Assembly: GCA_027487315.1 (NCBI GenBank)
Contig: JAIYDW010000097.1
Span: forward strand, 1-46,647
Origin: Verrucomicrobiaceae bacterium
GTDB lineage: Bacteria; Verrucomicrobiota; Verrucomicrobiia; Verrucomicrobiales; Verrucomicrobiaceae
Reading direction: 5' to 3'
DNA: 46,647 nt
The notes beneath the pieces are model-generated. The model saw nothing but the letters and a program-made list of their open reading frames with translations, searched no databases and was not told where the DNA came from. Position numbers and translations under genes: made by a program. Below are positions 9,546 to 31,119 of this stretch, piece by piece; position 1 is the stretch's first letter, and each line of letters starts with the position of its first letter.

Positions 9546-10901
9546 TCATCTCGGCTTCACCGTGTAGCTATGCTCGACCGCACCGTTCTCGAGTTCCGAG
9601 CGCGTCACGCCAGGCACGATGCTGCGCACGTAATCCACCTTGGCCTGATTCTCCTCAACAGTGACACGAACGTGACCTGCACTCCCGAGGATGACGCCCC
9701 CGTAGCCATATTCCTCTGCGCTTCGCGTCCCGCCACTTGGATGACCGGGCTGCGGCACATCCTGGTAGACGATCCCATCCAAATCCTCTTTGACAAAAAG
9801 ATGGTCGTGACCGTGAAACACGACGTTCACACCGTGTTTCACAAAAAGCTGATGCAGCGGCATCTCCCAGCCTGGACGGTTCTGTTTGAAGCCCTCGCTG
9901 CCGTCGGCGTTCTTGCCGCCCCATTCCATGTAGTCAGCAGGTTTGGCTCCACCCCGCACATCCCGCCCCAACCCGCCAACCAAGTGGTGAATGAACACGA
10001 ACCTCATCGCCGCCTTGCTGCTCGCGAGCATGTGGGCCAACCAGCGATACTGAGTCTCGCCAAGCGTCATGTCCCAACCGGACGCTCCGCGTTGCATGGT
10101 CGCCCAAAAGGGATCAATCCCGATGAAGAGCGCGTTGCCCCACTCAAAAGCAAAGTAGCTATGCTTGTCGTTCCCATTCGTGGGATTCGGAAAATAGGTG
10201 TGACGCTTGCCGAGCGACCACTCCGACATCACAGGATCACTGCCACGCTCGCCATCATGATTGCCCAGCACCATGAAAATCGGCACACTGTGCGCGACCC
10301 GGCCCATGTAATAGCGCTGCGCCTTGTATTGCGACTCTGCGCGGCGGAAGAACTTGCCGAATTTATCCACCATCGTCGTGTCGCCCAGGTCGATCATAAA
10401 ATCCGGCTTATCCGCCAGCATGTTGTTCAGCGTTTGCTGATAAACCCGCACATCGGTGTTGTTGTCGAGATGCGAGTCCGCCTGCATGACAAAGCGGAAG
10501 CTCGATCCCGCCTTCCGCTGCGTTTGAAAGCTGCGCGTCGCATCCTGCACCGCCTCACCCCCCGCGCGGCGGTAAGTGACATGGTAGTTGTAGCGCGTGT
10601 CGGGCTTCAATCCGCCCAGAACCATGTTCTCAGGAACCCCAGCCTTCAGTTTCACCGCTACCGTCTTTAAGCCGTCACCATACTCAATAAACGCCTCCAT
10701 GTCCTCCCACGCCAACACGCTGACCGTCACCGATTCCGCACCCGGCCTGCAAAGCCACACATTGAACAAATACGGCGGCACCTCCGCCGGCTCCACCTGC
10801 CCTCCCTGACCCGCGCCCTGACCCTTCAGTTTGCCCTCGGGCGCAGCGACAATGAAGGCGATGGGCAGCAGCCCGATCAGTAACAGATAGCAGTGTTTCA
10901 T
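9546..10901 (-). CDS. Exported metallophosphoesterase with N-terminal fibronectin-like domain
   Basis: A 451-residue calcineurin-type phosphoesterase. A signal peptide and a Gly/Gln-rich linker precede a purple-acid-phosphatase-like beta domain (about 50-128, including GLKPDTRYNYHVTYR). All metal-site motifs are present: ADSHLD (Asp142, His144), DLGD (171-174), GNHD (213-216), IHH and GHDH. It is homologous along its whole length to the C-terminal ~560 residues of the giant protein at 23006-30973, sharing blocks such as YEWGGKN/MEWGGKN, VNVVFHGHDHL and HIRVTV. It is a single gene, about 150 bp upstream of the GntR operon on the same strand and divergent from the sigma-factor operon. It probably hydrolyses extracytoplasmic phosphate mono- or diesters; the substrate is unknown. 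Confidence 0.88.
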   Translation of the reverse strand: MKHCYLLLIGLLPIAFIVAAPEGKLKGQGAGQGGQVEPAEVPPYLFNVWLCRPGAESVTVSVLAWEDMEAFIEYGDGLKTVAVKLKAGVPENMVLGGLKPDTRYNYHVTYRRAGGEAVQDATRSFQTQRKAGSSFRFVMQADSHLDNNTDVRVYQQTLNNMLADKPDFMIDLGDTTMVDKFGKFFRRAESQYKAQRYYMGRVAHSVPIFMVLGNHDGERGSDPVMSEWSLGKRHTYFPNPTNGNDKHSYFAFEWGNALFIGIDPFWATMQRGASGWDMTLGETQYRWLAHMLASSKAAMRFVFIHHLVGGLGRDVRGGAKPADYMEWGGKNADGSEGFKQNRPGWEMPLHQLFVKHGVNVVFHGHDHLFVKEDLDGIVYQDVPQPGHPSGGTRSAEEYGYGGVILGSAGHVRVTVEENQAKVDYVRSIVPGVTRSELENGAVEHSYTVKPR

Positions 10902-14266: not shown

Positions 14267-14270
14267 ATCC

Positions 14271-15461: not shown

Positions 15462-15486
15462 ATCCATAACATCGAACCCTTTCATC

Positions 15487-17010
15487 ATGAAACACTTACT
15501 CACCCTTTTTTCGGCCATTTTCGTTCTTTTCGGCCAGACCCAAGCCGCAGATAAACCCAACGTCATCTTCATCCTCGCGGACGATCTCGGCATCGGGAAT
15601 GTCGGCTGCTATAGCGCGGACAACTACAAGACACCGCACATCGACAAACTCGCGGCCGAGGGCACGCGGTTCACCCAGTGCTTCACGGCGGCGCTTTGCG
15701 GCCCGTCGCGGGCAATGATCATGACCGGGCGCTATGCCTTCCGCAACGGTTCGAGCAATCAAGACGCCTGCATGGTGATGCCCAACAAGGAACTGCAACT
15801 GGCGCGGGTTTTCAAAAGCGCAGGCTATGAGACCTCCTTCATCGGCAAATGGGGACAACTTCCGGGCGATCCTGATGAGGCGGGCTTTGACGATTATCTG
15901 CGCTTCAACGGCAGCGGCGTTTACTGGAGCCGCAAGCCCGATAAGCTCGAAGAATACCTCGTGAACGGTCAGGAGCAGGAACTGGGCGTGAAGGAATACA
16001 TGCCAGACCTCATGCACGAGCGTGCCGTCCGCTTTCTGAAGTCCAGTCAGGACAAGCCTTTTTTCCTCTACTACTCCCTCGTCCATGTGCATGGCGACAT
16101 TCAGCCCACGCCCGATAGCTCAGCGGACAGCAAGGACCTCTTTGGCGACAACATCCTCTACATGGACAAACTCGTCGGTAAACTCGTCGCCGAACTCGAT
16201 GCGCTGAAACTCCGCGAGAAGACGCTCATCATCTTCATGGGCGACAACGGCACCGGCAAAGGCCAGAACCCGCTGTCCACCATCGGCGGGCGCAATCTCT
16301 CCGGCATGAAGGGCAGCATGCTCGAATGCGGCGGCCTCGTGCCCATGATTGCCAATTGGCCAGGCAAGACACCCGCTGGCAAAGTCAGCGCTGACTTGAT
16401 CGACTCGTCGGACTTTCTCACCACATTCGCGGAGCTCTCTGGCGGCAATTTGCCCAAAAACACGATCTTCGACGGTCACAGCATGGCCCCGCAACTCCGT
16501 GGTGAGGCCGGCCAGCCACGTGAGTGGGTCTTTAACCAACTCGCCGCCATGTGGTATGTGCGGGACGCGAAATGGAAGCTCAACGAGAAGAACGAACTCT
16601 ATGACATGAGCGAGGCCCCCTTTGCCGAAAAACTCGTTGCTGGCGATCATCCCGCTCGCGCTAAACTCGCCGCCGTGCTTGCAAAATTGAACCCCGCAGG
16701 CGGAATCCCCGACAGTGGCGACGGCACCGGTCGTCATGCGAACAAGGACAAGAAAAAGAAGGGCGAGGAACCCATGAAGAAGCCCGAGACGCCGCCAACG
16801 ACGCCTCTAACGGCGGAAGAGCAGGAGCGTGCCGCCAAGTTCGACAAACTCGACGACGCCAAGGCCGGCAAGCTCACCCGTGACTACTACACCACCCACC
16901 AATCCGATGCCGCTGCCGCTACGGAGCGATTCGACAAATACGACAGTGACAAAGACGGCTTCGTGAGCCGTGAGGAATACATCCTCAAAGGCAAGATGAC
17001 GAAGAACTAG
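15487..17010 (+). CDS. Sulfatase with C-terminal EF-hand-like tail
   Basis: A 507-residue secreted sulfatase. The signal peptide ends near TQA-AD. The metal strand is VIFILADDLGIGNVGCY and the formylglycine site CGPSR has its cysteine at 71. FIGKW and MGDNGTGKG follow. After the catalytic body (to about residue 415) comes a Lys/Pro-rich linker and a tail with TRDYYTTHQSDAAAA and a perfect EF-hand loop DSDKDGFVSREE (486-497), predicted to bind calcium. The next gene carries nearly the same tail. It may anchor the enzyme or bind calcium-bridged polyanions; that is inference. It is 25 bp downstream of the alginate lyase. Confidence 0.92.
   Translation: MKHLLTLFSAIFVLFGQTQAADKPNVIFILADDLGIGNVGCYSADNYKTPHIDKLAAEGTRFTQCFTAALCGPSRAMIMTGRYAFRNGSSNQDACMVMPNKELQLARVFKSAGYETSFIGKWGQLPGDPDEAGFDDYLRFNGSGVYWSRKPDKLEEYLVNGQEQELGVKEYMPDLMHERAVRFLKSSQDKPFFLYYSLVHVHGDIQPTPDSSADSKDLFGDNILYMDKLVGKLVAELDALKLREKTLIIFMGDNGTGKGQNPLSTIGGRNLSGMKGSMLECGGLVPMIANWPGKTPAGKVSADLIDSSDFLTTFAELSGGNLPKNTIFDGHSMAPQLRGEAGQPREWVFNQLAAMWYVRDAKWKLNEKNELYDMSEAPFAEKLVAGDHPARAKLAAVLAKLNPAGGIPDSGDGTGRHANKDKKKKGEEPMKKPETPPTTPLTAEEQERAAKFDKLDDAKAGKLTRDYYTTHQSDAAAATERFDKYDSDKDGFVSREEYILKGKMTKN
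16874..16913 (+). repeat. 40-bp direct repeat, copy 1 (inside sulfatase tail)
   Basis: These 40 bases, encoding THQSDAA and flanking residues of the tail domain, are identical to 18639-18678 in the next sulfatase gene, although the catalytic parts of the two genes are well diverged. This points to a recently shared or converted tail module. Confidence 0.85.
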
Positions 17011-17029
17011 TCTCAAATCCATCCCAACC

Positions 17030-18763
17030 ATGAAAACGATTCTCACCGCCTTCCTGCTAACCCTACCCACGCTCCAAGCAGCGACTAAACCGAACATCCT
17101 TTTCATCTCCGTCGATGACCTGCGACCCCAGCTCGGTTGCTACGGAGACAAGCTGATCCAATCGCCCAACATCGACCGCATCGCCGCACGCGGTATCGTC
17201 TTCAACAAAGCCTACACTCAGCAGGCGGTGTGCAGTCCGTCACGCACGGCGATCATGACCGGTCTGCGACCCGATGTAACGAAGGTTTGGGACTTGGACA
17301 CTCATTTCCGCCCAGCACAGCCGGATTGCATCACGCTGCCCCAGCATTTCAAAGCGAACGGCTATCAGTGTGAAGCGCTAAGCAAGATCTATCATAAAGG
17401 GCATGAAGACGGTCGCTCTTGGACCGCGCCGCATTGGTATCCGTTTGGTCGATCCGTGGACACCGATCTCGTGGACTGGACCAAGCAGATTGTCACCAAG
17501 CACGACGTCAACGTCTTGGAATACTCCTCGCCTGAAGCCAACGACACCTCGGTGAAAAAGAAGGACAAAGAAGCCAAGGCCGGGCCTTCATTTGAAGTCA
17601 GCTCCAAGGACGACAGTGAGCTTCCTGATGGTGCCACAGCGGCAGAGGCCGTGAAGCGGCTCGCAACGCTCAAAGCCAAGGGTCAACCCTTTTTCCTCGC
17701 GGTGGGTTTCTTGAAACCGCATCTGCCTTTCGTCGCACCAAAGAAATATTGGGACCTCTACGACCCCAACAGCATCCCTTTGCCGGCCATCGATCATCTC
17801 CCTGAAGGGGCTCCGCCGTATGTCGGCCACACCAACGGCGAAGTTCACAACTATCCAGGTGTGCCAAAGGGAGACCCCATCCAAGCTGACTTCGCCAAGA
17901 ATCTGCGTCATGGCTACTATGCCTGCATCAGCTACATGGATGCTCAGGTCGGGAAGGTGCTTGACGCGCTCGAAAAGGAAGGTCTCGCCGACAATACCAT
18001 CATTGTCCTCTGGGGTGATCACGGCTGGCAGCTCGGTGATCACGGCTTGTGGCACAAGCACACCAACTTCGAACTCGCCACCCGTGCGCCGTTGCTCATC
18101 AGCGTTCCAGGTTCGAAGACCGCCGGTCAAAAGTGCTCCGCGACCGTCGAGTTTGTCGATGTGTATCCCACTCTCGCGGAGCTGTGTGGCCTCCCGAATC
18201 CCACCGGTCTCTCGGGCCGCAGCTTGAAGGCCTTCATCAACAATCCATCGGCACCGTCCACCAAAGTCGCCATCAGCCAATACCCGAAAAAAGCCCCGGA
18301 AGGCCAAGTCATGGGCTACAGCATTCGCAACGACCGCTACCGCGTCACCTTCTACCGCCTACGCAACGGCTCCCAAGTCGTCGGCACCGAGCTTTACGAT
18401 GAACAAAACGACCCCAACGAAACAGTCAGCCTCGCCAACAAACCCGAGCACAAAGACCTGCTCGAAACCCTCGCCAAACACCTCCCGCCCGTCGGCTCCG
18501 ATGCCAAACCCGAAGGCGCAGAACCCGTGAAGAGCAAAAAGAAAAACAAGGACAGGCCCGAGGCTCCCACCACAACCGCCGGGACTGAAGATCGCGGTGC
18601 CCGCTTCGACAAACTCGACAAGGACAAGCTCGGCAAAATCACCCGTGACTACTACACCACCCACCAATCCGATGCCGCCGCTGCAGCCGAACGCTTCACG
18701 AATTGGGATACCGACAAAGACGGCTCCCTCTCGCGCGATGAATACATAAAGCAAGGGAAGTGA
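17030..18763 (+). CDS. Sulfatase, iduronate-2-sulfatase-like, with C-terminal EF-hand-like tail
   Basis: A 577-residue secreted sulfatase. The signal peptide ends near LQA-AT. The metal site is ILFISVDDLRPQLGCYGD and the formylglycine site CSPSR has its cysteine at 68. WGDHGWQLGDHGLWHKH and TNFELATRAPL place it with iduronate-2-sulfatase-like enzymes, closer to the sulfatase at 4302 than to its immediate neighbour. After the catalytic body there is a Lys-rich linker and a tail repeating that of the preceding sulfatase, with EF-hand loop DTDKDGSLSRDE (560-571). It is the last gene of the ECF operon, converging on the minus-strand sulfatase at 18847. Confidence 0.92.
   Translation: MKTILTAFLLTLPTLQAATKPNILFISVDDLRPQLGCYGDKLIQSPNIDRIAARGIVFNKAYTQQAVCSPSRTAIMTGLRPDVTKVWDLDTHFRPAQPDCITLPQHFKANGYQCEALSKIYHKGHEDGRSWTAPHWYPFGRSVDTDLVDWTKQIVTKHDVNVLEYSSPEANDTSVKKKDKEAKAGPSFEVSSKDDSELPDGATAAEAVKRLATLKAKGQPFFLAVGFLKPHLPFVAPKKYWDLYDPNSIPLPAIDHLPEGAPPYVGHTNGEVHNYPGVPKGDPIQADFAKNLRHGYYACISYMDAQVGKVLDALEKEGLADNTIIVLWGDHGWQLGDHGLWHKHTNFELATRAPLLISVPGSKTAGQKCSATVEFVDVYPTLAELCGLPNPTGLSGRSLKAFINNPSAPSTKVAISQYPKKAPEGQVMGYSIRNDRYRVTFYRLRNGSQVVGTELYDEQNDPNETVSLANKPEHKDLLETLAKHLPPVGSDAKPEGAEPVKSKKKNKDRPEAPTTTAGTEDRGARFDKLDKDKLGKITRDYYTTHQSDAAAAAERFTNWDTDKDGSLSRDEYIKQGK
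18639..18678 (+). repeat. 40-bp direct repeat, copy 2 (inside sulfatase tail)
   Basis: Identical to 16874-16913. It lies in the tail-coding part of the second tandem sulfatase. Confidence 0.85.
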
Positions 18764-18846: not shown

Positions 18847-20214
18847 CTACTTTTTGCCTCCTTTCTTCCCACCCTTGCCTCCACCCTTCCTTGCAGGCTC
18901 CTTGGAGGAATCGTAGTTGGGATTCGGTTTGGGCATCGCAGCCCCCACTTCACGCAAATAGTCCGCAAGCTGTTTGGCAAGGCTTGTTGCCAGCTCCGGC
19001 TTGGCTTCAGCGAGGTTCCGACTCTCGCCGATGTCGGCTTGGAGATCGAAGAGCTGGTTTTGACCGCTTTCGTAGAAGTGAATAAGCTTCATGTTTCCAC
19101 TAAAAATCGCCGAGTGCGGGGAGTCGCCCTGATAGTGCGGAAAATGAAACACCAACTCCTCGCGAAGCCGCCCCACACGATCGGACGAGCCACTCAGCAG
19201 ATGCGAAAGGTCGCCGCCGTCGAGCTGTTTGGGCAGCGCTGCCTTCCCACCCGCCCAACGACAAAACGTCGGGAAAAAATCATACCCGACAACTCGTTGA
19301 TGACACCACGAGTTCGCCTCGATGCCTGGCCCCCGAATGATCAAGGGCACACGAATACCGCCCTCCCACACATCTCCCTTTCCGCCACTCAACGTGCGGC
19401 GATTCGATCCGCCGTTGTCGGACATGTAGATGACGATGGTGTTCTTCGAGAGCTCCATGGCATCCAGCTTGGTCAGCAACTCGCCCACACCGCGATCCAG
19501 ATCCTCCGCGATGGCTGCACGACCGACTTCCTTGTCGTCTCTGCCACCGGCGAGCTTCCGGTATTTCTCTATCAGCGTGGGAGTGGCGTTTTCAGGATAA
19601 TGCAGTGCATTGTAGCTCATCTGGATGAAGAACGGCTTCCTGGCCGCCTGGCTGCGCTTCATGAAATCCACCGCTCTTGCTCCCATGCCAAAGATGTCCA
19701 CGGGATTGGGCGGCAAATGCGGCCCGGCATCCTGATTGCCGGTGTCGCCATCGCTCTCATCGTAGCCGTGAGCGGCGGGGCCACCGCCCGAGAGATGCCA
19801 TTTGCCGTAGTGGGCCGTCGCGTAGCCCGCCGACTTCAACATATTTCCGATCGTGACCTCGTCATCGCGAATGCTTTTGCGATTGTCGCCTTCGATCAAA
19901 CGATGCCCCATCTCAGGCGGAGCCGCTTTCGTCCACCCCAGCGCCGCCGGATTGCGCCCCGTTTGCAGGCTGATGCGTGTCGGCGAGCACACCGGCGCGG
20001 GCGCATACGCCGCGCTGAATCTCATGCCCTGTTCCGCGAGTCGCGCGATGTTCGGTGTCTGCACGATGCTGCTCTTGGAGTCCGGCATGTCCGGATGCAT
20101 CTGGCAGGACAGCCCGCTCCACGCCTGATCATCCGAAAGCATGAACAGGATGTTCGGCGGCGCGGCGGCGAAGGCACCGGAGGCTACGAGTAGCAGGAGG
20201 AGAAGCGATTTCAT
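18847..20214 (-). CDS. Sulfatase (arylsulfatase-like) with basic Lys/Gly tail
   Basis: A 455-residue secreted sulfatase. The signal peptide ends near AFA-AA. The metal strand is ILFMLSDDQAWSGLSC and the formylglycine site is CSPTR (Cys76). HYGKWHLSGGG and YMSDNGGSNRRTLSGGKGDVWEGG are typical of arylsulfatase-A-like enzymes acting on external substrates. It ends in KGGGKGGKKGGKK, a strongly basic low-complexity tail that could bind sulfated polyanions or the cell envelope (inference). The upstream neighbour on the same strand, 18 bp away, contains similar Lys/Gly runs. It is the last gene of the minus-strand operon headed by the giant fusion. Confidence 0.92.
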   Translation of the reverse strand: MKSLLLLLLVASGAFAAAPPNILFMLSDDQAWSGLSCQMHPDMPDSKSSIVQTPNIARLAEQGMRFSAAYAPAPVCSPTRISLQTGRNPAALGWTKAAPPEMGHRLIEGDNRKSIRDDEVTIGNMLKSAGYATAHYGKWHLSGGGPAAHGYDESDGDTGNQDAGPHLPPNPVDIFGMGARAVDFMKRSQAARKPFFIQMSYNALHYPENATPTLIEKYRKLAGGRDDKEVGRAAIAEDLDRGVGELLTKLDAMELSKNTIVIYMSDNGGSNRRTLSGGKGDVWEGGIRVPLIIRGPGIEANSWCHQRVVGYDFFPTFCRWAGGKAALPKQLDGGDLSHLLSGSSDRVGRLREELVFHFPHYQGDSPHSAIFSGNMKLIHFYESGQNQLFDLQADIGESRNLAEAKPELATSLAKQLADYLREVGAAMPKPNPNYDSSKEPARKGGGKGGKKGGKK

Positions 20215-20232: not shown

Positions 20233-22935
20233 TTATCGTTGAGGCACGCCACTCACATCCAAATCCGGCTTCGTGTTCCATCTTGGCGTCCAGCCGGTTT
20301 TTTCGACCTTGGTGCGGAAGATGACGGTGTTGTCGAGGGCGATGTCGTCGCTCCAGATGAACTTGGCGCCTTCGAAGTCGTTGTCGAAGTAGGGCTGCTT
20401 GGGATCGACTACTTCGACGGCGTATTCTTTGGCGTTCTGCCAGGTGCTGTCGTCGAAGTCGGTGTCCCACCAGTTCTCGGGAAGAGGCTCTTGTTTGACC
20501 TGCGGGTTAGCGGTGTCGCCGTTGATGGGGCCGTGGAAGAAGTTTTTGGCCTTCCAGGTCGCGTTGGTGACGGTGCCGTCGACGAATTTCAGGCAAAAAC
20601 CGCCGTCACCGATGCTGGTGCCGTATTCCATGCCGGTCTTGGGGTCAGCGTTGTCCTTCGCGAGGACGGCGATGGTCATGGGATACTCGGGGAGGAAATC
20701 GACACTGACAACGTTGTGCGGCGTGAATTGGATCGGATCCACGGCGACGAGACGACCGTTCACGTAGAGGATGAACCAGTTGTCGGCATAGATGTTGAGT
20801 TTGATCGTGTCGGCGATACTGGGCTTCACGAGGCCGGGCGGGCCTCCTTTGCCTTTTCCTTTGCCGCCGCCTTTTTTAGGTTCTGCGGCAACAGAGGGAG
20901 GTGGTGACGCCTCCGCCGTTTTGGGTCCGACTTGTCCGACCGGTCGGGCCTGTCCGACAGCACCGCCGCTGCTATGAACGACGCGTAGCGAGGAACTCGC
21001 CAGCACCTTATCCTTCATCGCCGCGATGAGTTCTTCGCGTCCCGGCGAGCCTGCGACCTTCAGCGGCTCAGTGAGGGCATACATCGTGATCACATAGGTC
21101 TTCGCGCCTGGGCCTTTCGAGTGCGGCGGTTCGTAGCCGACTTCGCCTTTGAAGCCGGTGCCGATCTTGCCGATGCGCTGCGAATCCTTCGGAAGGCTCG
21201 TAGTACTCGCGGGGATTTCATAGACGGTCCAATACCACTTCTTGTCACCATCAGGTGTCACATGATCCATGATCAGGGCGTAGCTCTGTGTGCCTGCGGG
21301 AGCGTCCGACCATTCCAAGGGCGGGCTGAGGCCATCGCCATCACCGGTGAACTCCACTGGCAGCTTCTGAAGGTCTTCGACGACGGAACTCATCAACATG
21401 AATTTGCCATCGCTGCTGCGGGGTTGATCCGGCAGCGCGACAAAGGCTTCCTGCTTGCCGCCACGACCACCGCCTTCGCCTTTCTTCATCTCTTTGCGTG
21501 CGGGAGGCTCCTCACCACGTGGCTGCGGAGCGCCGGGGGCAGGCGCTTTGCCAGCGAGTTCATCGAGTTCCGGTGTGTCGAGTTTGCCATCGCGATTGTG
21601 ATCGAAGGTATTGAACTGCTCTTTGGCTTTCGCCATCGCTTCGGGAATGGCGATGCCTTTCTTCGTGGCATTCGACTTCGCGTTATCGGCGAACTCCTGC
21701 GCGGTGACAACGCCGTCGCCATTCACATCGAGGAGGCCTTCGATGGCGGCCTGCGGACTCGGCGGGCGACCACCTTCTTCACCGGGACGCGGCGGTGGTA
21801 CATCACCGCGACGCATCTCGCCTTCGCGACCACCTTTGCCCTGTCCCTTGCCTTTTCCTTTGCCCTTCATGCCTTCGGGGCCACCACCACCGGGCGGGCG
21901 ATCACCGCCACCACCGCCGCCTTGGCGACGTGCGGTGTAAACTTCATCCGCCGTGCCTTCGCGACCATTGTCGAAGTGGAAGGGATAGGTGCCATCGGCC
22001 TTGATCGAGTAGCTGACGCTGCGTTTGTCGCCATTCACGTCGTAGCTGAGCTTGTAGCTGTCCTTGCCGGTGCTTTCAAAGGCGGTGATCTTGGCACCGC
22101 GAAGCGCCGTGCGGGCCTCGCGCACGCCTTGGGCTCGCGGTTGCGGATCGACCTGCTCTCCCGCCTCCACGACCTCGCCGTGGAAGCCACCGATGACATA
22201 CGGATACTTGTTCGACGCATGATAATGATAGCCGCCGGGCGATTCATGACCGTGACACTCGTCGAGATTCGCCACGGGCGAGCCATCCGGCTCCGTGAGG
22301 CCATAGATCGGATAACCATCGAGCGCATATGCCACCGGCATGCCTTTCCCCGCCTGCGCCTGGAGATGCAGCGGCGTGATGTGGTAGTGGTAATCATCCG
22401 CACGTCCGCAATGCCCGCCCCACTCGTCCAGCTCGCCGATTTCATAGCTGATCTCGCCGCGATTGTTCTGCGGGTTGAAGATCGGAATCCCATTCACCGC
22501 CAAAGCGATCGCACCGCGCAGGAAGTGGCCTTTGATCATCGCAGGCTCCTTCGCGGGCACCGGCTTCAGCGGGATGCGCCAAGCATTGTCATCGAAATAC
22601 GGCTGCGGCAGCGGCACCTGCTGCTGCCACGCGGTGATGCCGACCATCATGTTGTGATCCGGCAGGCCATTCGAGCCCACATAGAGAAACTCACCGTCCG
22701 CACGCAGATCGAGCTTCGTGAAGGGCAGAAAAGCCTTCGCGGTCTGCGGTGCATTCGCCGCGTTCGCGACTGCCGCAGCGGCGAGTTGCAGCGTCGAAGC
22801 CGTGGAGGCCACTTCGGCGTGCTCTCGCTTCCACTCATCCAGAATATGCGCTCGCAGCACCTCCCGGTCGGTAGTGGCCAGATCATGCGCGGCGAGGCTT
22901 GTCGCGAACAGCAGGAGGACAGAGAACGTTTTCAT
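20233..22935 (-). CDS. YHYH / EF-hand / PEBP multidomain secreted protein
   Basis: A 900-residue protein with a signal peptide (to about residue 16). The YHYH domain spans about 70-330, with two YHYH motifs (182-185 and 236-239), WQQQVPLP and LDGYPIYG. A Gly/Lys/Arg/Pro-rich linker follows (about 340-395). Two EF-hand loops are DVNGDGVVTAQE (403-414) and DHNRDGKLDTPE (445-456). A phosphatidylethanolamine-binding-protein (YbhB/YbcL-like) domain lies at about 505-655, with LSPPLEWSDAPAGTQSYAL. A second GKGKGKGG linker precedes a C-terminal beta domain (about 705-895, FILYVNGRLV, WWDTDFDDSTW) resembling galactose-binding-like folds. Its N-terminus is homologous to that of the giant protein 70 bp upstream. 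The function of each half is unknown; calcium binding is likely. Confidence 0.88.
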   Translation of the reverse strand: MKTFSVLLLFATSLAAHDLATTDREVLRAHILDEWKREHAEVASTASTLQLAAAAVANAANAPQTAKAFLPFTKLDLRADGEFLYVGSNGLPDHNMMVGITAWQQQVPLPQPYFDDNAWRIPLKPVPAKEPAMIKGHFLRGAIALAVNGIPIFNPQNNRGEISYEIGELDEWGGHCGRADDYHYHITPLHLQAQAGKGMPVAYALDGYPIYGLTEPDGSPVANLDECHGHESPGGYHYHASNKYPYVIGGFHGEVVEAGEQVDPQPRAQGVREARTALRGAKITAFESTGKDSYKLSYDVNGDKRSVSYSIKADGTYPFHFDNGREGTADEVYTARRQGGGGGGDRPPGGGGPEGMKGKGKGKGQGKGGREGEMRRGDVPPPRPGEEGGRPPSPQAAIEGLLDVNGDGVVTAQEFADNAKSNATKKGIAIPEAMAKAKEQFNTFDHNRDGKLDTPELDELAGKAPAPGAPQPRGEEPPARKEMKKGEGGGRGGKQEAFVALPDQPRSSDGKFMLMSSVVEDLQKLPVEFTGDGDGLSPPLEWSDAPAGTQSYALIMDHVTPDGDKKWYWTVYEIPASTTSLPKDSQRIGKIGTGFKGEVGYEPPHSKGPGAKTYVITMYALTEPLKVAGSPGREELIAAMKDKVLASSSLRVVHSSGGAVGQARPVGQVGPKTAEASPPPSVAAEPKKGGGKGKGKGGPPGLVKPSIADTIKLNIYADNWFILYVNGRLVAVDPIQFTPHNVVSVDFLPEYPMTIAVLAKDNADPKTGMEYGTSIGDGGFCLKFVDGTVTNATWKAKNFFHGPINGDTANPQVKQEPLPENWWDTDFDDSTWQNAKEYAVEVVDPKQPYFDNDFEGAKFIWSDDIALDNTVIFRTKVEKTGWTPRWNTKPDLDVSGVPQR

Positions 22936-23005: not shown

Positions 23006-26000
23006 TCAAGGAGTGTAACTCACTCGATAGAATGCCCGCAGTCCGTTCACGCGGGCGGGAAGCGTATCGGTGTAAGTGGCATTCGTGTTCGTGTTGGTGA
23101 AGGTGAGGGTGTCGATGGTGGTCCAGGTGATCAAATCGGTGCTCCATTGAATTTGATACGGTTTGTTGGGGATCGCGTTCCAGCGGAGGCCGACTTGGCC
23201 GGGGGCGACATTGGCGACTTCGATGGGGGGGCTGACCTTTGGCGCGAGGACGAAGCTGTGGGAGATGCTGCGGTTGATGCGGGTGGGGGTTTCGTCGTTG
23301 AAGACGCTGGTGGCATCGGGCGGCATGGGGTCGGTGGCGGTGCGGTAGCTGCGGACGTAGTCGGCTACGGCTTGATCGGGGCCGACGGTGACGCGGATGT
23401 GGCCGCTGTTGGGCAGGAGGTAGCTGGTGCTGTTGGCTCCGAGATTGACGTATTGGCCGTCCACGGCGCTGCCGAGGCTGGTGTAGTTCGGTGTGCCGGG
23501 CTGCGGGCATTCGAGATAGACGACACCGTCGCGAGTCTGGTAGCCGTAGAGGTGATCGTGGCCGTGGAAGACGACGTTGACCTTGTTTTGCACGAGCAAA
23601 TCATGGATCGGCATGTCCCAGCCGGGGCGCTTGGTGGCAAAGCCGGGGCTGCCGTCGATGTTCTTGCCGCCCCACTCGTATTTGTCGCTCACTTCGATGC
23701 CGCCACGTGCGGCGAACTGCGGGGTGGGCACGTTGTTGATGATGGCCTGGGTGCTGCCGCCGACGATGTGGTGCATGAAGACGAACTTGTATCTCGCGCT
23801 GCTGTTTTTGAGCGTGTCGCGCAGCCAGTCATACTGCGCTTTGCCGAGGCTCCAGTTCCACGCGTCGTTGGAGGAGTTGGGGTTCGTGTTCGTGTTCCAG
23901 AACGGATCGAGCATGATGAAGAGGGCTTCGCCCCACTCGAAGGCGTAGTAGTCTTCCAACAAGCCAAGCGTGCCGCCGGTGTAGTCCTTCGGTGTGGGAT
24001 TGCCAGCGTAGAAGCCATCGGGTGTCGGTGCGGGGTAGAAGGCTTTGCGGGCCTTCAAATCCCAGGCGGGGATGTTGTTCTGCTTGTCGGTGGCGGCGTT
24101 GAAAAGGTAGCCGTATTCTGCCTCGTGATTGCCGAGGCCGAAGAAGAACGGGATGCTGTGGCAGGCACGCTCAAAGGCATTGCGGAAGATGATGGCGCGG
24201 TTGTTGATGCTCGTCTGATTGATCGTCACGCCGCCGCCCCACTTCGGTGGCACGCCGAGCAGGCCGTCGGCGAGCTTGTCGGTCATGAAGATGTCGCCCA
24301 CGTCCATGTGGAGGTCGGGCGCATCGAGGCTGATGTTCTGCATGGCACGCCAGAAGAGCTGCATGTCGGTGTTCACGTCGATATGCGGGTCCGCAGTGAC
24401 GGTGAAGCTGAACGTCGTGCCGCGAGGCCGAGCGGTGTGGAAGCTGCGCTCGCCGCGAGCATTGTAGAACGTCGCCCCGACATTGCGATGGCGCACGCGG
24501 TAGTAATACTCGGTGTCAGGCTGCAAGCCGGTGATCGGGATGCGGATGGGGTTCTTGAACTCAGGCTTGGCGTTGTCGATGTTGAACGTCGTGGGCGTGG
24601 TGGCGAGCGTGTATTGGCCGGGAGCGGTGCCGTATTCGACAAAGACCTGCTGATTGGCCGAGGCGATGAGGTTCACAGTCACGCCGTCAGTTTTCGGCAA
24701 GGTGAGGAACTCCGCGCCGAGGATGGTCGCGTCAGTCAAAGCGGAGTTGACGGTGTAAGTGTAGTTACTGGACGTTGGGCTCATGGTGGTGGTGCCATTG
24801 TTGTTGGTGGCCGTGACGTGGAAGCTCACCGTCCGGCCTCCCGCCTGAGCAGGGATCAATGCTCCCCACACGCCATCATTGGCCGTGCCATCGCCGTGAT
24901 TGCCATCGTCAAACATGGCCAGTGTCACTGGCGGCGAGGGTGCGTTGGTGACGACGATGATGTCGTCAATCTGCACCTTGGATGCGCTCGCTCCTCCGAG
25001 ACCGTTCCCGGCGAACTGGAAGCGCAACTTGAGCGTGCTCACCAACTCCGATGGCGCGAGATCATAGTGATAGACGCTGGTGTAGCTGTGATTACTTCCA
25101 TCCACTTCGCTCAGGCGCGTGTTCCAGGTGATGCCATCCGTGGAGGTTTGGAAGGTCCAACCGAGGCCCGCAGTGAGGTTGGATGTTGCCACCCAGAACT
25201 CGACATAGCCAGCGCTGCCAGCGGCGTTGATTGCGCTCGCGGTGGTCACGGAGCGGTCGCCCATCGTGGTGGTGCCCCGCTTGAACTCCAGGCCACAAGG
25301 ATTGCCTGCGCCGTGGTTGGCATTCGTGGTCTGCCCGATGTCCGTGGTGGATGCTGGCGTGGGCAGCCAGGCATTGTCGCAGCCATCACCGGTCCAAGGC
25401 GTGGCTGCTGCCGAGCGCATCGTCTCGGCAAACAACGGGTTGGTCTGCGGCACGCCATTGTCATAGATCAACTGCACCTGTGAAACGGAAGTGCCTGCTG
25501 TCGGTGTCACCGTGGCGAGCACATACGTTGCGTCCAAATACGTGGGAGCAGTGGGGCCGGTGCCCACATTGGCAATCGTTGGTCCACCTGCGGTCACCGT
25601 GAGCGTGCCCGCATCGCTCGTGGTGCTGCCGATGTTGTTCGAGACGATGACATCATACAAGCCTGCATCGCTGGGAGCGACGTTTGTCAGCGTCAATGTG
25701 GCCGCATAAGTGCCTCGGACGGCGACCGCCAAATCATCGGTGATCTGCGTGACGATTCCGCCAGCGACATTCGAACCACCTTTGCGCCACTGCACGGTCG
25801 GTATCGCGCCTGGCCAACTGGTGAATGGCGCATACAGCGTGATGGTGCCGCCTTGAGGCACGCTGTTTGTGATGAGCGGCGGGCCAACATAGGGTTTCAT
25901 GTTTCCGACGCTGATCGCCGTGATCGCATTGGTCAATGTGGTGACGATGCTGGCATAGGCGCTATTGGCGATGAGGTCCGTGGTCTCCTGCGGATCGTCG

Positions 26001-29000
26001 GTGAGGTTGTAAAGCTCGGGCGTGAGCACGTTGTTCACGCGGCCACGGATGAGTTTAAAATCCTTCACGCCGCCGTTCACCGGATCGGTGAACTGATAGA
26101 TCGCAATCGGCGCTGCACTCACGGTGACGAGTGGCGAGCCACGCGAGACAGTGGTGCTGTTACTGGCAGAAAGCAGAGCGGGCCAGAGATTCACGCCATC
26201 CAGCGGCTTGGTGTTTTGCGGCGTCACACCGACAGCCGCGCAGAGGGTGGGGAAGACATCGCCGACCCACATGGATTGATTACTGATGACACCAGCGGGC
26301 AGCACACCGGGCCATTTGATGCCTGCGACTTCACGCATCCCGCCTTCATAGCTGTCGCCCTTCGTGCCACGCAGCGGATCATTGAGCGAGCCTTTGGTTT
26401 CATCGCCACCGTTGTCACCAAACCAGACGACGAGCGTGTTGTTGGCGATGCCTGCTGTATCGAGCGCGGCCAGCACCCGGCCAATCTCCTGATCCATGCC
26501 ATCCACAGCAGCGGAGATAAGGCGACGATTGGCATTCGTGACGCCGAGGTTTTGATATTTCGTAATCAAGCTCGCCGGAGCCGAAACGGGGCCGTGGATC
26601 GAGTTGAAGGCCAAGTGCAGCAACATCGGCTGCGCAGGGTTGCGGTTCTGAATGTGAGCGATGGCCTTGTCCGCGAGCAATGTGGGCGACCAGCCGCCAT
26701 AGCCACGTGAATCGGTGTGTTCGCTAGGTCCATCTTGCTGCACGCCATTCAGCCACCAGTCAGGAATGTCGAGCGACTCGGCCTCGGCGCTGTGGTGAGT
26801 GTAGTAATCAATCGCGCCGGAATACTGCCCGTAGAACGAGTCCCAACCGCGATTGTGCGGCGCATATTGCAGACCTTCCTTGATCACGCGCACCGGGCTG
26901 CCGTTCACGTTGAAGTGATACAAGTTCTTGTCGCTGCCGCCGAGATGCCACTTGCCGCACATGAATGTCTGGTAGCCCGCCGCCTTGAAGGTCTGAGGCA
27001 TGAGATGCTCGCTCAAATCAAGGCCACGCTCGTTGTTAGTGCCGTGACGAATCGCGTTGCGGCCCGTCATCAAGGTGGAGCGAGTCACACTACAAACTGT
27101 CGTCGCATAGAAGCGCTCCAGACGAATGCCCGTCGTCGCAAAGCTATCCATGTTCGGCGTCTGAATCGGCACCTGGCCTGCGGGCGTGTGATAGCCGACA
27201 TCGCCCCAACCTTGGTCATCGGTGACGATGATGACAACGTTCGGAGGTGTGACATTGGCACCGCTGATCGTGAGCGTGAAGACTCGTGTGGCAATGCGGC
27301 CTACGCTATCGGTTACCTTCAACGTGAAGTTAAAGGTGCCGTTCGCTGTTGGCGTGCCACTGAGGACACCCGCACTGCTCAAGGTAAGACCCGCTGGCAA
27401 AGTGGAGCCTGCATTAACGCTCCAGGCATAGCCCGAGCCACTGCCACCACTGGCGACAAGCGTCTGTGAGTAAGCACCAGTGGCATTGGGCAAGGTGGCT
27501 CCCGTCGTGATGCTAGGTGCCGGACCGGTGGTGTAACTGCCCGCATTGGTGATCGCCGTTGTCTGAGCATTGCTGTCCGTCGCGACGATGGAGTAAGTGA
27601 TCGTCGTTCCCGAAACCTGCGCTGGAATGACGGCAGTGAAGCTGCCGCCATTCGCAGGCCCGCTCATCGTCACCGGAGTCGGCGCTGAACCGGATGTCGA
27701 GACGACCACGATGTCATCAATGTTCACCGTCGAGCCTGTGGGGCCGCCAACACCATTGCCGACAAAGCCGAATCGCATCTTCAGAGTGCTGGTCAGGTCA
27801 GTGGCGAGGAGGTTGTAATGATAGAGCTGGTAGCCATGCACGCTGCCACTGAACTCCGATACTCTCTCGGTGAATGTTGTGCCATTTGGCGCAAGTTGGA
27901 AGGACCAGCCGTTCGTGCCCGTGAGTCCAACCGTTCGCAGCCAGAACTCGACATAGTTTGTCGTGGTCGATCCGCTGGTGAAGGTGCCCGTCGCATTGAT
28001 CGGATTCGTTGTCGTGATCATCGTTCGCGTCGGGTCCGTGGTGGCGGCTGAGCCTTTGCTAAAGACCACGCCACAACTACCCGTGATGCCCGTCGTGTGA
28101 TTCGACGTGCCAGCCGTCTGTTTGATATTGCCCGCGCCATCTTGCGAGTTCACCGTCCACGCATACGTCGCGCCCGAGCCATCCCAGCCGCCGGTGGTCG
28201 TCGCCGTGGTGGACATGGGTTCATTAAAGATGGTGGACGTTGTCTGCGCACCGGTGCTGTAGGTCAAAGTCGCGCTGGTGATCGTGGCACCACTGGCGGG
28301 CGTGATCGTTACGCTGACCGTCGGGGTGTCCACATCGCTCGGCACGGCGGGACTGGTGGCAATGCCAGTGATCATCGGAGCTGGAATGGCACCCGTGCCC
28401 GTGAGAGCGATATCAAAAGCCGCGCCCACGCTGCTGTCACTGCTGGCGATGTGCAGCGCGGCTGTTTTTGCGCCAGCGCTGCTCGCATTGAAATGCACGA
28501 CAAAATCCGAAGTCGCTCCGATGGCGATGCTCGATGCTGGCGATGTCGTCACGGTGAAAAGCGAGCTGTGCGTGCCGTCGATGCTCAAGCTGATGCCCGT
28601 GAGCGCGGTGGTGCCATTGTTGGTGATCGTGAAGGTCTTCGACAGCGTGCTGCCCACATTCACACTGCCATAGCCGACCGTGCTGAGGCCATCCGTCAGC
28701 ATCGTCGCCCCTTGCGACACCGCGATCTGCGTCGGCGTGAGTGCGGCTGTGCGCACGGCAAAGACAGGATACGACGAGGTCTTTGGCTCATGGCTGATGA
28801 TGCCCTGCGCATTACGCTGTGGATTGGAGGTCGTATTCAATCCAAACTCCACGACCAGCGCGGCGAGCGCGTCATTGTTCTGCGTCGTCGATGTCCAATA
28901 CGAAGTCGCCGTGGCCGATGGGAAGAGCAACCGATGCGCTGGCGGCTTGATGTTCGTGAGGCTGGTGAAAGTGGTCATCGTGTAATCCACCAGCGACTCC

Positions 29001-30973
29001 ATTTCCTTCACGTTCGGCATGCGCCAGTCGCTGAAGCCCGCATCCGTGAGTCCTTCGATGTCTGCCAAAGCCGCTGACCATGTCGCCGCTGTGCGAGGCA
29101 ACTGCTTCCACATCAAACCCGTATCGAGGTCCGTGACGGTGCCGTCGTTGTTGCTCACGTAGTTGTGGCCGTTCGTCTGCTTGGCGCCGCGCACATAGCG
29201 GGCGTGATAGCGCAGGGTGCCACCTGCGCTGATGGTTTCCGACTTCGGCTTCGGCCCCAGACCGCCGCCTTCATTCGTGCACCACACATTTGTCGTGCTC
29301 GTGCCGTAAAGATCGCTGCTCCACCAGTAGCCCGCCCGTGCCACGGGATGGTTCGGGAAGAAGGCCGTGTTCAGGGCCGGGTTCGATACCTGATGATTGA
29401 ACAGGCAGAACAACTCATGCGGTGTCGGCAGCCGCCAATCATTGTAGCCGCCCGTGGTCACGCTCGCTGCATTCGCGACGGCGTTTTCCCAAGTGGACTC
29501 GCCATTGTCCACGCTCTGCCACATCAGGCCGGTGACGTTGTCGGTGATGGTGCCGTTGCCGTTGTTGGTGAAAGCCTGGGCATGGATCGTGTAGTCGCTG
29601 TCCTCGCCATCACCTGCCGAACCGGTGAAATTGCCCGTCTGTGAGGTGTCCGGCAGCGCGATCATGCTCTTGCCGCTCATCGGGTAGGTGGTGACGCGAT
29701 TGCCGTTGCTCGTGTAAGTCGTCGTCGTTGTGCCGGTGGTCGGATGCCGATAGGTCATCGTGTAGCTCTTGGGCACCGCTTTGCGGTTCAAACGCCAGCA
29801 CACGTCATACGTCACGCTGCTCACCGTGTAGCGCATGAGGAAATCATCCTCGCTCGGCGTTCCGCTCACGTTTTCGATAAAGTGACCGCTGCCATCCACG
29901 CTCAGCGCCACGGGATTTTTGAAGGCGATGATCGCCGCGCCTGGCACCTGCTGCGCCGTGTAGCCACCGGTGCCTGAGGCACGCATGTTCGACACACTCG
30001 GCTGGGGATCGATCTGCGAGTCAAAATTCACCACCACGCCATGCATGGCATTCATCATGAAAGGGTTCGAAGGCGTCCAGCTCGCCGTGCCCGAGTTGTA
30101 AGTGCCTCGTGCATGATAATGATAGCCCCAGGTGCCGTGATCGTGGCCGCCATCTGCATCCAGCGTCTGCATGGGCGAGCCATCCGGCTCCACATAACCA
30201 TACACCGGATAGCCATCCAGCGCCCAGGCGATGGGTTTGTCATTCCCCAGCACCGGGATCAAATGCACCGGATAAATGTGGTAGTGATAATCATCCGCCA
30301 GACCGCAGTGACCGCCATAGATGTCCAGCTCGCCGATATCATAGCTGAACTGCCCGGTATTGTTGCGCGGATTAAAAATCGGCACGCCATCCGACCCTAG
30401 CGCCACCGCCCCGCGCAGAAAGTTCCCATTCAGCGAGATCGGCGATGCCGCAGGCACGGGCACCAGCGGCAGCTTCCACACATTCGGCTGCCCAAAGCCC
30501 AGCGAACCCGCGTTATTCGTCCCATTCGTCGTCCCGATGAAATACGAAACTGGCATCGGCACCTGCTGCTGCCACGTCGTGATCCCCACCATCAGATTCG
30601 GCTGCCGCGTGCGATCCGGGATACCGTCGCTCTCGACGTAAAAGTAGTTCGCGTCATTGTAGAACCGCAGCTTCGGCTTGAACGGCAAAAACGAAGCTGA
30701 CATCAGCTCCCCATTCCCCGGAGCCGTCAAAGTCGAGCCTTGAGCGAGCATCGCGAGGTTTGTCATCATTGAGGCCACCTGCACGTCCTCCGTCACCACT
30801 GGCTTCGGTGCTGGTTTGTAGTCCGCCTTCGCCAAAGCCATCCGCTTGGCCATAAACTCATCCGCGATGTGCTTTCGCAGCATTTCCTTGTCCATCGGCA
30901 GCCCGCTGGAGTCGGTGGTATGAGCATGCAGCGCCAGCGGCGCGAGGCAGAGAAGGGCAACAAAAGGTTTCAT
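23006..30973 (-). CDS. Giant secreted YHYH / DUF1566 / sulfatase / metallophosphoesterase fusion
   Basis: A 2,655-residue exported protein (signal to about residue 18). Domains in order: YHYH (about 85-330, motifs at 229-232 and 284-287); two DUF1566/Lcl-type domains (about 470-600 and 610-745; GLMWQ...NDWRLP, GLMWK...SDWRMP); choice-of-anchor-D-like domain (746-860); module A (861-1150); putative Ig domain (1150-1240); sulfatase (about 1243-1690; VTDDQGWGD, GKWHLGG, WFGDNGGDE); Ig-like domain (1698-1795); module B (1796-2075), homologous to module A; fibronectin-like plus metallophosphoesterase (2075-2590; Asp2195, His2197, GNHE, MHH, GHDH); and a short C-terminal beta module. The formylglycine site reads C-S-V-T-R (Cys1294) rather than C-x-P/A-x-R. 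The frame is unbroken throughout. The related single-domain proteins in this window support the domain calls. A dual sulfo- and phospho-esterase role is inferred. Confidence 0.9.
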   Translation of the reverse strand: MKPFVALLCLAPLALHAHTTDSSGLPMDKEMLRKHIADEFMAKRMALAKADYKPAPKPVVTEDVQVASMMTNLAMLAQGSTLTAPGNGELMSASFLPFKPKLRFYNDANYFYVESDGIPDRTRQPNLMVGITTWQQQVPMPVSYFIGTTNGTNNAGSLGFGQPNVWKLPLVPVPAASPISLNGNFLRGAVALGSDGVPIFNPRNNTGQFSYDIGELDIYGGHCGLADDYHYHIYPVHLIPVLGNDKPIAWALDGYPVYGYVEPDGSPMQTLDADGGHDHGTWGYHYHARGTYNSGTASWTPSNPFMMNAMHGVVVNFDSQIDPQPSVSNMRASGTGGYTAQQVPGAAIIAFKNPVALSVDGSGHFIENVSGTPSEDDFLMRYTVSSVTYDVCWRLNRKAVPKSYTMTYRHPTTGTTTTTYTSNGNRVTTYPMSGKSMIALPDTSQTGNFTGSAGDGEDSDYTIHAQAFTNNGNGTITDNVTGLMWQSVDNGESTWENAVANAASVTTGGYNDWRLPTPHELFCLFNHQVSNPALNTAFFPNHPVARAGYWWSSDLYGTSTTNVWCTNEGGGLGPKPKSETISAGGTLRYHARYVRGAKQTNGHNYVSNNDGTVTDLDTGLMWKQLPRTAATWSAALADIEGLTDAGFSDWRMPNVKEMESLVDYTMTTFTSLTNIKPPAHRLLFPSATATSYWTSTTQNNDALAALVVEFGLNTTSNPQRNAQGIISHEPKTSSYPVFAVRTAALTPTQIAVSQGATMLTDGLSTVGYGSVNVGSTLSKTFTITNNGTTALTGISLSIDGTHSSLFTVTTSPASSIAIGATSDFVVHFNASSAGAKTAALHIASSDSSVGAAFDIALTGTGAIPAPMITGIATSPAVPSDVDTPTVSVTITPASGATITSATLTYSTGAQTTSTIFNEPMSTTATTTGGWDGSGATYAWTVNSQDGAGNIKQTAGTSNHTTGITGSCGVVFSKGSAATTDPTRTMITTTNPINATGTFTSGSTTTNYVEFWLRTVGLTGTNGWSFQLAPNGTTFTERVSEFSGSVHGYQLYHYNLLATDLTSTLKMRFGFVGNGVGGPTGSTVNIDDIVVVSTSGSAPTPVTMSGPANGGSFTAVIPAQVSGTTITYSIVATDSNAQTTAITNAGSYTTGPAPSITTGATLPNATGAYSQTLVASGGSGSGYAWSVNAGSTLPAGLTLSSAGVLSGTPTANGTFNFTLKVTDSVGRIATRVFTLTISGANVTPPNVVIIVTDDQGWGDVGYHTPAGQVPIQTPNMDSFATTGIRLERFYATTVCSVTRSTLMTGRNAIRHGTNNERGLDLSEHLMPQTFKAAGYQTFMCGKWHLGGSDKNLYHFNVNGSPVRVIKEGLQYAPHNRGWDSFYGQYSGAIDYYTHHSAEAESLDIPDWWLNGVQQDGPSEHTDSRGYGGWSPTLLADKAIAHIQNRNPAQPMLLHLAFNSIHGPVSAPASLITKYQNLGVTNANRRLISAAVDGMDQEIGRVLAALDTAGIANNTLVVWFGDNGGDETKGSLNDPLRGTKGDSYEGGMREVAGIKWPGVLPAGVISNQSMWVGDVFPTLCAAVGVTPQNTKPLDGVNLWPALLSASNSTTVSRGSPLVTVSAAPIAIYQFTDPVNGGVKDFKLIRGRVNNVLTPELYNLTDDPQETTDLIANSAYASIVTTLTNAITAISVGNMKPYVGPPLITNSVPQGGTITLYAPFTSWPGAIPTVQWRKGGSNVAGGIVTQITDDLAVAVRGTYAATLTLTNVAPSDAGLYDVIVSNNIGSTTSDAGTLTVTAGGPTIANVGTGPTAPTYLDATYVLATVTPTAGTSVSQVQLIYDNGVPQTNPLFAETMRSAAATPWTGDGCDNAWLPTPASTTDIGQTTNANHGAGNPCGLEFKRGTTTMGDRSVTTASAINAAGSAGYVEFWVATSNLTAGLGWTFQTSTDGITWNTRLSEVDGSNHSYTSVYHYDLAPSELVSTLKLRFQFAGNGLGGASASKVQIDDIIVVTNAPSPPVTLAMFDDGNHGDGTANDGVWGALIPAQAGGRTVSFHVTATNNNGTTTMSPTSSNYTYTVNSALTDATILGAEFLTLPKTDGVTVNLIASANQQVFVEYGTAPGQYTLATTPTTFNIDNAKPEFKNPIRIPITGLQPDTEYYYRVRHRNVGATFYNARGERSFHTARPRGTTFSFTVTADPHIDVNTDMQLFWRAMQNISLDAPDLHMDVGDIFMTDKLADGLLGVPPKWGGGVTINQTSINNRAIIFRNAFERACHSIPFFFGLGNHEAEYGYLFNAATDKQNNIPAWDLKARKAFYPAPTPDGFYAGNPTPKDYTGGTLGLLEDYYAFEWGEALFIMLDPFWNTNTNPNSSNDAWNWSLGKAQYDWLRDTLKNSSARYKFVFMHHIVGGSTQAIINNVPTPQFAARGGIEVSDKYEWGGKNIDGSPGFATKRPGWDMPIHDLLVQNKVNVVFHGHDHLYGYQTRDGVVYLECPQPGTPNYTSLGSAVDGQYVNLGANSTSYLLPNSGHIRVTVGPDQAVADYVRSYRTATDPMPPDATSVFNDETPTRINRSISHSFVLAPKVSPPIEVANVAPGQVGLRWNAIPNKPYQIQWSTDLITWTTIDTLTFTNTNTNATYTDTLPARVNGLRAFYRVSYTP

Positions 30974-31119
30974 GGCTAACCTCAGACTGCCGGGAACGTG
31001 TCAGCCCCTCTTCACCGAACTCAGGCAGAATTGTCGGATTTGTGTAAAGAGTGATGCAGGCTTCAGTCTGCGCCTCGAATATACTTTGATACAGGCTAAA
31101 GCCACACCACCTTTTCCCC
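30974..31119. promoter_or_regulatory. Divergent promoter region, giant fusion operon / two-component operon
   Basis: 146 bp separate the start codons of the giant gene (minus) and the response regulator (plus), so both promoters must lie here or in flanking coding DNA. TATACT at 31079-31084 is a possible -10 for the plus strand, without a recognisable -35. GCAG/CTGC arms at 31055-31070 form a weak dyad. Confidence 0.45.

Follow-up and report, generated by a model that had tools for sequence, protein, structure and literature searches.

The window, a 46,647-nucleotide contig (JAIYDW010000097.1; C118 in our numbering) from Verrucomicrobiaceae assembly GCA_027487315.1, contains one very long minus-strand gene and, downstream of it, separate genes for relatives of three of its domains. 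The assembly totals 5.87 Mb, is 98.7% complete, and has close relatives in the public collection labelled Verrucomicrobiaceae and Prosthecobacter. The features considered here are as follows, with MPE standing for metallophosphoesterase.

23006..30973, minus strand: giant fusion gene, an unbroken frame of 2,655 codons; about 282 kDa, predicted pI 5.5
30914..30973, minus strand: signal-peptide-like N-terminus MKPFVALLCLAPLALHAHTT (aa 1-20), read from the sequence
29939..30718, minus strand: YHYH domain (aa 86-345); PF14240 at 31.9 bits when scanned alone, and alignments
28709..29608, minus strand: two Lcl_C/DUF1566 domains (aa 456-755); PF07603 at 134 bits in two stretches, cut-off 34.9
28379..28732, minus strand: Ig-like 'choice-of-anchor D' spacer (aa 748-865); NF012200 at 57.5 bits, PF22073 at 36.7 bits
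27554..28378, minus strand: jelly-roll-like spacer repeat 1 (aa 866-1140); local profile CHX, no Pfam name
25874..27256, minus strand: S1 sulfatase domain (aa 1240-1700) with motif C1294-S-V-T-R1298; PF00884 at 149 bits
25610..25864, minus strand: Ig I-set-like spacer (aa 1704-1788); PF07679 at 29.4 bits
24749..25591, minus strand: jelly-roll-like spacer repeat 2 (aa 1795-2075); local profile CHX, with choice-of-anchor X at 2018-2046
23339..24709, minus strand: FN3 (PAP-N) and calcineurin-like MPE (aa 2089-2545); PF16656, PF00149 and metal-ligand motifs
23009..23263, minus strand: C-terminal FN3-like 'YQIQWSTDLITW' module (aa 2571-2655); local profile CTD
31031..31048, minus strand: conserved element TTTACACAAATCCGACAA ahead of the giant gene, with no other exact copy in the genome
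31120..33278, plus strand: OmpR/CpxA-like pair of response regulator and histidine kinase, upstream of the giant and divergent from it, retained beside it in several relatives
20233..22935, minus strand: YHYH-PBP, 900 aa (PF14240, PF01161), the next gene after the giant across a 70-bp gap
18847..20214, minus strand: stand-alone sulfatase, 455 aa, motif CSPTR; PF00884 at 147 bits, after an 18-bp gap from YHYH-PBP
9546..10901, minus strand: stand-alone MPE, 451 aa; PF00149, 44% identical to the fused MPE

Translation of the giant gene from the ATG at 30973 gives 2,655 residues with no internal stop, confirming the unbroken frame that an earlier note on this DNA had described. From N- to C-terminus the chain comprises a signal-peptide-like start, the YHYH domain, two Lcl_C domains, Ig-like and jelly-roll-like spacers, the S1 sulfatase, further spacers, FN3 with MPE, and an FN3-like C-terminal module of a type that the local profile also detects in further large proteins from this group. 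From the signal-peptide-like start we infer that the protein is probably exported. The earlier note had placed YHYH, DUF1566, sulfatase and MPE in this single chain, and all four exceed their Pfam cut-offs, YHYH when scanned alone. Its picture of two hydrolase classes combined with Ig-like spacers also holds: the domains are found, the metal-site motifs are kept, and Pfam places Ig-like domains at aa 749-861 and 1704-1788. The CHX spacer repeats are best called jelly-roll-like, a description that goes no further than their sequence. Each single domain is known, and neither the combination of YHYH, sulfatase and MPE nor the sulfatase motif discussed below is described in the literature searched. 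Within open-access text we found no paper pairing YHYH with a sulfatase, and a wider query was likewise empty, so that the claim of an architecture without a described precedent is not contradicted there.

A scan of genome contigs gave 38 loci. The architecture search across genomes that the earlier note had proposed showed that at least 12 distinct assemblies, that of the window among them, encode YHYH, sulfatase and MPE in a single open frame, at lengths of 2,357-5,354 codons (L005 3,449; L007 3,620; L009 3,637; L011 3,644; L012 3,651; L014 5,354; L015 5,190; L016 3,618; L017 3,627; L018 2,357; L132 5,168). L128, whose frame of 3,958 codons was covered in part, also carries the three domains together. 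Of 68 genomes within the family, 20 have a YHYH frame no shorter than 1,500 codons. The arrangement varies: in L018, from a Verrucomicrobiales assembly that is less closely related, the order is permuted to YHYH-sulfatase-MPE-Lcl_C, L026 has sulfatase and MPE in one chain with a separate YHYH-PBP alongside, and forms lacking the MPE are common (L004, L019, L021, L024, L025, L129, L130). A further frame, L131:1992-10259 on the minus strand, is a giant of 2,756 codons with YHYH and Lcl_C in which no sulfatase or MPE domain was detected.

Relative to L004, L005 and L007, the giant gene is, by sequence comparison, a mosaic. Residues 1-840 agree at 92-100% with L005 and with L004, a short form from the same genus, residues 841-1140 match well only to short forms, residues 1261-1800 match L005 and L007 at 87-100%, residues 1801-2040 match nothing above 60%, and residues 2041-2655 match L005, L007 and L009 at 67-100%. 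The enzyme domains resemble conserved cassettes set between linkers that are exchanged. In comparisons with five long-form relatives, the sulfatase has dN/dS values of 0.03-0.15 and the MPE values of 0.08-0.23, and this range (0.03-0.23 across both enzyme domains) indicates purifying selection for function. The mosaic, and the metagenome-type origin of all the assemblies, are what one might expect had a metagenome assembler merged adjacent genes, or related genes from different strains, into a single frame. We consider this highly improbable, however, because the borders of the mosaic fall in variable linkers, the open frame shows purifying selection, and no fewer than 12 distinct assemblies have the same three domains in a single frame. 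The 11 assemblies other than the window rule out that the fusion arose by chance or misassembly, and we reject an artefact on that ground. The fusion is real and widespread in freshwater-type Verrucomicrobiota.

The sulfatase domain passes the PF00884 cut-off of 25 with 149.2 bits over aa 1244-1583, and its nearest solved structure is human arylsulfatase B (N-acetylgalactosamine-4-sulfatase, 1fsu; 3.9e-55), followed by carrageenan and other polysaccharide sulfatases. With this branch of the S1 sulfatases it shares the PF00884 domain, the nucleophile Cys, the motif Arg, and the metal and substrate residues D1252/D1253, K1341/H1343 (GKWH), H1460, D1520/N1521 and K1538. It differs in being part of a chain that exceeds 2,600 residues and also carries a phosphoesterase, and in having Val or Thr rather than Pro or Ala at the +2 position of the motif. 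Alanine is tolerated at the proline position of the formylglycine motif, and CSVTR in the giant departs even from the resulting C/S-x-P/A-x-R pattern. The accepted motif for formylglycine maturation is C/S-x-P-x-R (PMC8746622), and in mouse iduronate sulfatase a Pro-to-Leu change in the maturation motif is impairing (PMC10185571). Every fused relative that we read has C[SA][VT]TR and none has canonical CxPxR or CxAxR, most stand-alone sulfatases here have CxPxR, and in a tree the fused sulfatases group in a single, fully supported clade. A degenerate DNA pattern for CxVxR, run against the whole genome, was not specific enough to be informative.

In the same genome, PF03781 (the FGE family) gave 16 matches, with a CxxxxC pair in none of the 12 that were read, and the best match in a search for radical-SAM maturases fell below cut-off. 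This genome encodes many sulfatases, yet no maturase was identified among its FGE-family or radical-SAM matches. Since the fused domain has a non-canonical motif and CxxxxC is missing from all 12 of the FGE-family sequences that were read, it cannot be taken for granted that this domain is an active sulfatase. The protein might instead be an adhesin or surface-display protein, in which an unmatured, non-catalytic sulfatase-like domain binds and the other domains serve attachment. C[SA][VT]TR in all fused members read, the want of an identified maturase in FGE-family and radical-SAM searches of the genome, the many Ig, jelly-roll and Lcl_C modules of the kind found in adhesins, and the persistence of the L131 giant frame with neither enzyme domain all speak for this explanation. 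We nevertheless judge it unlikely, since the remaining catalytic residues of the sulfatase are kept, the motif Cys and Arg included, dN/dS is very low, and the metal-ligand motifs of the MPE are intact.

The MPE reaches 28.9 bits with PF00149 (cut-off 21.5) over aa 2189-2475 and is preceded by a purple-acid-phosphatase-type FN3 at aa 2096-2178. It carries the motif series D-x-H/GD/GNH/H/GHxH at D2195-H2197, D2227, N2282-H2283, H2401-H2402 and H2472/H2474. It therefore has the FN3 and metallophos domains and the generic metal-ligand motifs of calcineurin-like MPEs with this type of FN3, but its first motif is D-P-H and its second GDIFM, rather than the DxG and GDxxY of purple acid phosphatases, and it lacks the Tyr ligand that marks those enzymes. 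The best solved relatives of the MPE profile are acid phosphatases. In a tree the fused MPEs split into two groups.

The YHYH domain exceeds the PF14240 cut-off of 25 both alone (31.9 bits) and in a genome search (33.1 bits), although it falls under the reporting limit in a scan of the whole chain. D217, H222, Y229, H230, H232 and D253 are invariant in an alignment of 46 sequences. YHYH has been predicted to be a Zn- or metal-dependent hydrolase with three His and an Asp as predicted Zn ligands (PMC7824862). The giant shares the invariant Asp/His set and a score above the Pfam cut-off with known YHYH proteins, including those of cyanophages and jumbo phages, but it is fused to sulfatase and MPE where those proteins have tail or lectin domains. 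Structure prediction, as the earlier note had suggested, succeeded in part: a first model from a long stretch of the giant itself was poor (pLDDT 58) and had no structural match, whereas AlphaFold2 gave pLDDT 91 for the paralogous YHYH domain of the window (22108-22743), used in its place for its deeper alignment. Against the PDB, the best Foldseek E-value for the paralog model was 2.1 and VIA-align returned nothing with a Z of 2 or more. This absence of a PDB match does not prove a new fold. In a viral structure library the same model matches YHYH proteins of cyanophages, which supports it; a pattern search of viral contigs for YHYH relatives confirmed none.

The Lcl_C domains recall the C-terminal domain of the Legionella collagen-like protein Lcl, which binds sulfated glycosaminoglycans (PMC11162425). 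The giant has two Lcl_C domains above the Pfam cut-off. However, it has no collagen-like region, and its two Lcl_C domains are acidic (pI 5.6 and 4.9) where the Lcl surface is positively charged, so that the parallel in glycosaminoglycan binding is weak. A binding role for these domains may be proposed by analogy with Lcl only.

The earlier note had also pointed to separate YHYH, sulfatase and MPE genes in the window, at 12590, 15487 and 9546. All three exist, but the closest YHYH paralog of the giant is YHYH-PBP at 20233-22935 (52%), and the sulfatase of the conserved cluster is the one at 18847-20214. The genes at 12590 and 15487 belong to a plus-strand cluster (12590-18763) of YHYH, alginate lyase and two sulfatases, which splits the minus-strand set between 18847 and 10901. 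We rejected them as true partners: their YHYH and sulfatase are distant relatives of the fused domains, and the intervening segment that includes this cluster has no counterpart in the syntenic L005 locus. There the MPE gene directly follows the sulfatase, whereas in the window it sits apart at 9546-10901.

The claim that the fusion links functions which also exist separately comes out stronger than it was made. We sampled 20 genomes around YHYH-PBP, none of which has a giant YHYH frame in the family survey. A sulfatase is adjacent or one gene off in 18 of them (the exceptions are L114 and L124), and an MPE lies within about 8 kb in half (10/20). YHYH-PBP, sulfatase and MPE form a recurrent separate-gene cluster, also in genomes where no giant was found. 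Directly upstream of YHYH-PBP in L112, a minus-strand frame of 169 codons (L112:8878-9384) contains a piece of MPE and the C-terminal module of the giant, and is probably what remains of a giant gene that was deleted. The partner sulfatase beside YHYH-PBP or the giant is of the HCKCECSRAAIQ type (C-E-C-S-R) in L110, L112, L116, L118, L120-L122, L125, L127 and L129, and has CSPTR or CTPTR in other genomes. C-E-C-S-R is the second variant here that does not follow the formylglycine motif.

About 10 loci conserve TTTACACAAATCCGACAA ahead of the giant gene, together with a CTGACA farther along. A reading of TTTACACAAATCCGACAA as a Pho box was discarded, there being no second exact copy in the genome and one other match with three mismatches; the reversed control also gave one match. 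The best models for the adjacent two-component pair are OmpR/CpxR and CpxA, all below cut-off, with no clear PhoBR. Neither the regulator models nor the genome search for the element revealed a Pho-regulon link for the giant. These results bear on a nutrient-scavenging role, in which sulfate and phosphate would be released from a wide range of organic esters, dissolved or bound, rather than from one doubly modified substrate, and the fusion would simply co-export two ester hydrolases on one carrier. Such a role agrees with a calcineurin-like MPE that carries FN3 and whose profile has acid phosphatases as best solved relatives, with the parallel existence of separate sulfatase and MPE genes, and with the frequency of MPE-less forms, which implies that the two activities are not obligately coupled. 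Given the absence of a clear PhoBR in the divergent regulator and of a second exact copy of the upstream element, we regard scavenging as somewhat unlikely.

We favor, at roughly even odds (about 0.5), the interpretation that the giant is an exported Verrucomicrobiota multi-enzyme for anionic organic polymers, whose modules bind while the sulfatase, MPE and YHYH domains hydrolyse. The Lcl_C and jelly-roll modules would hold the protein on an anionic polymer, perhaps an algal or bacterial exopolysaccharide or one resembling glycosaminoglycans, where the arylsulfatase-B-like domain would strip sulfate esters, the MPE would take off phosphate esters, and YHYH would act as a metal-dependent hydrolase on an unspecified bond. 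The downstream YHYH-PBP, sulfatase and MPE could be the same set in separate chains, acting together with the giant, and the exchanged modules and variable linkers would be as in a surface-exposed protein adapting to changing substrates. This interpretation draws on the recurrence of the fusion, the low dN/dS and kept catalytic residues of both enzyme domains, the polysaccharide sulfatases among the nearest solved structures, the separate-gene cluster, and the published YHYH and Lcl results; the sulfatase motif, the acidic Lcl_C region and the relatives that lack one or both enzymes weigh against it. A narrower proposal, that three hydrolase activities in one exported chain act on a polymer which carries sulfate as well as phosphate groups, with a sulfatase clade matured at C[SA][VT]TR outside the CxP/AxR rule, we hold to be doubtful. 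The earlier note had suggested a glycan or lipid with both groups as a possible substrate. Sulfatases are very numerous in this genome, and the fusion alone is therefore weak evidence for one shared substrate.

These data document a family of giant, probably exported enzymes, the longest of 5,354 codons, in a phylum common in freshwater, and a sulfatase clade that departs from the textbook formylglycine motif. The unexplained YHYH domain gains a repeated functional neighborhood of sulfatase and phosphoesterase, as well as a confident predicted structure for which the PDB searches gave no relative. L030:4731-10313, from an assembly labelled Methanofastidiosum (an archaeon), holds three consecutive genes, two for MPEs and one for a DUF1566 protein.
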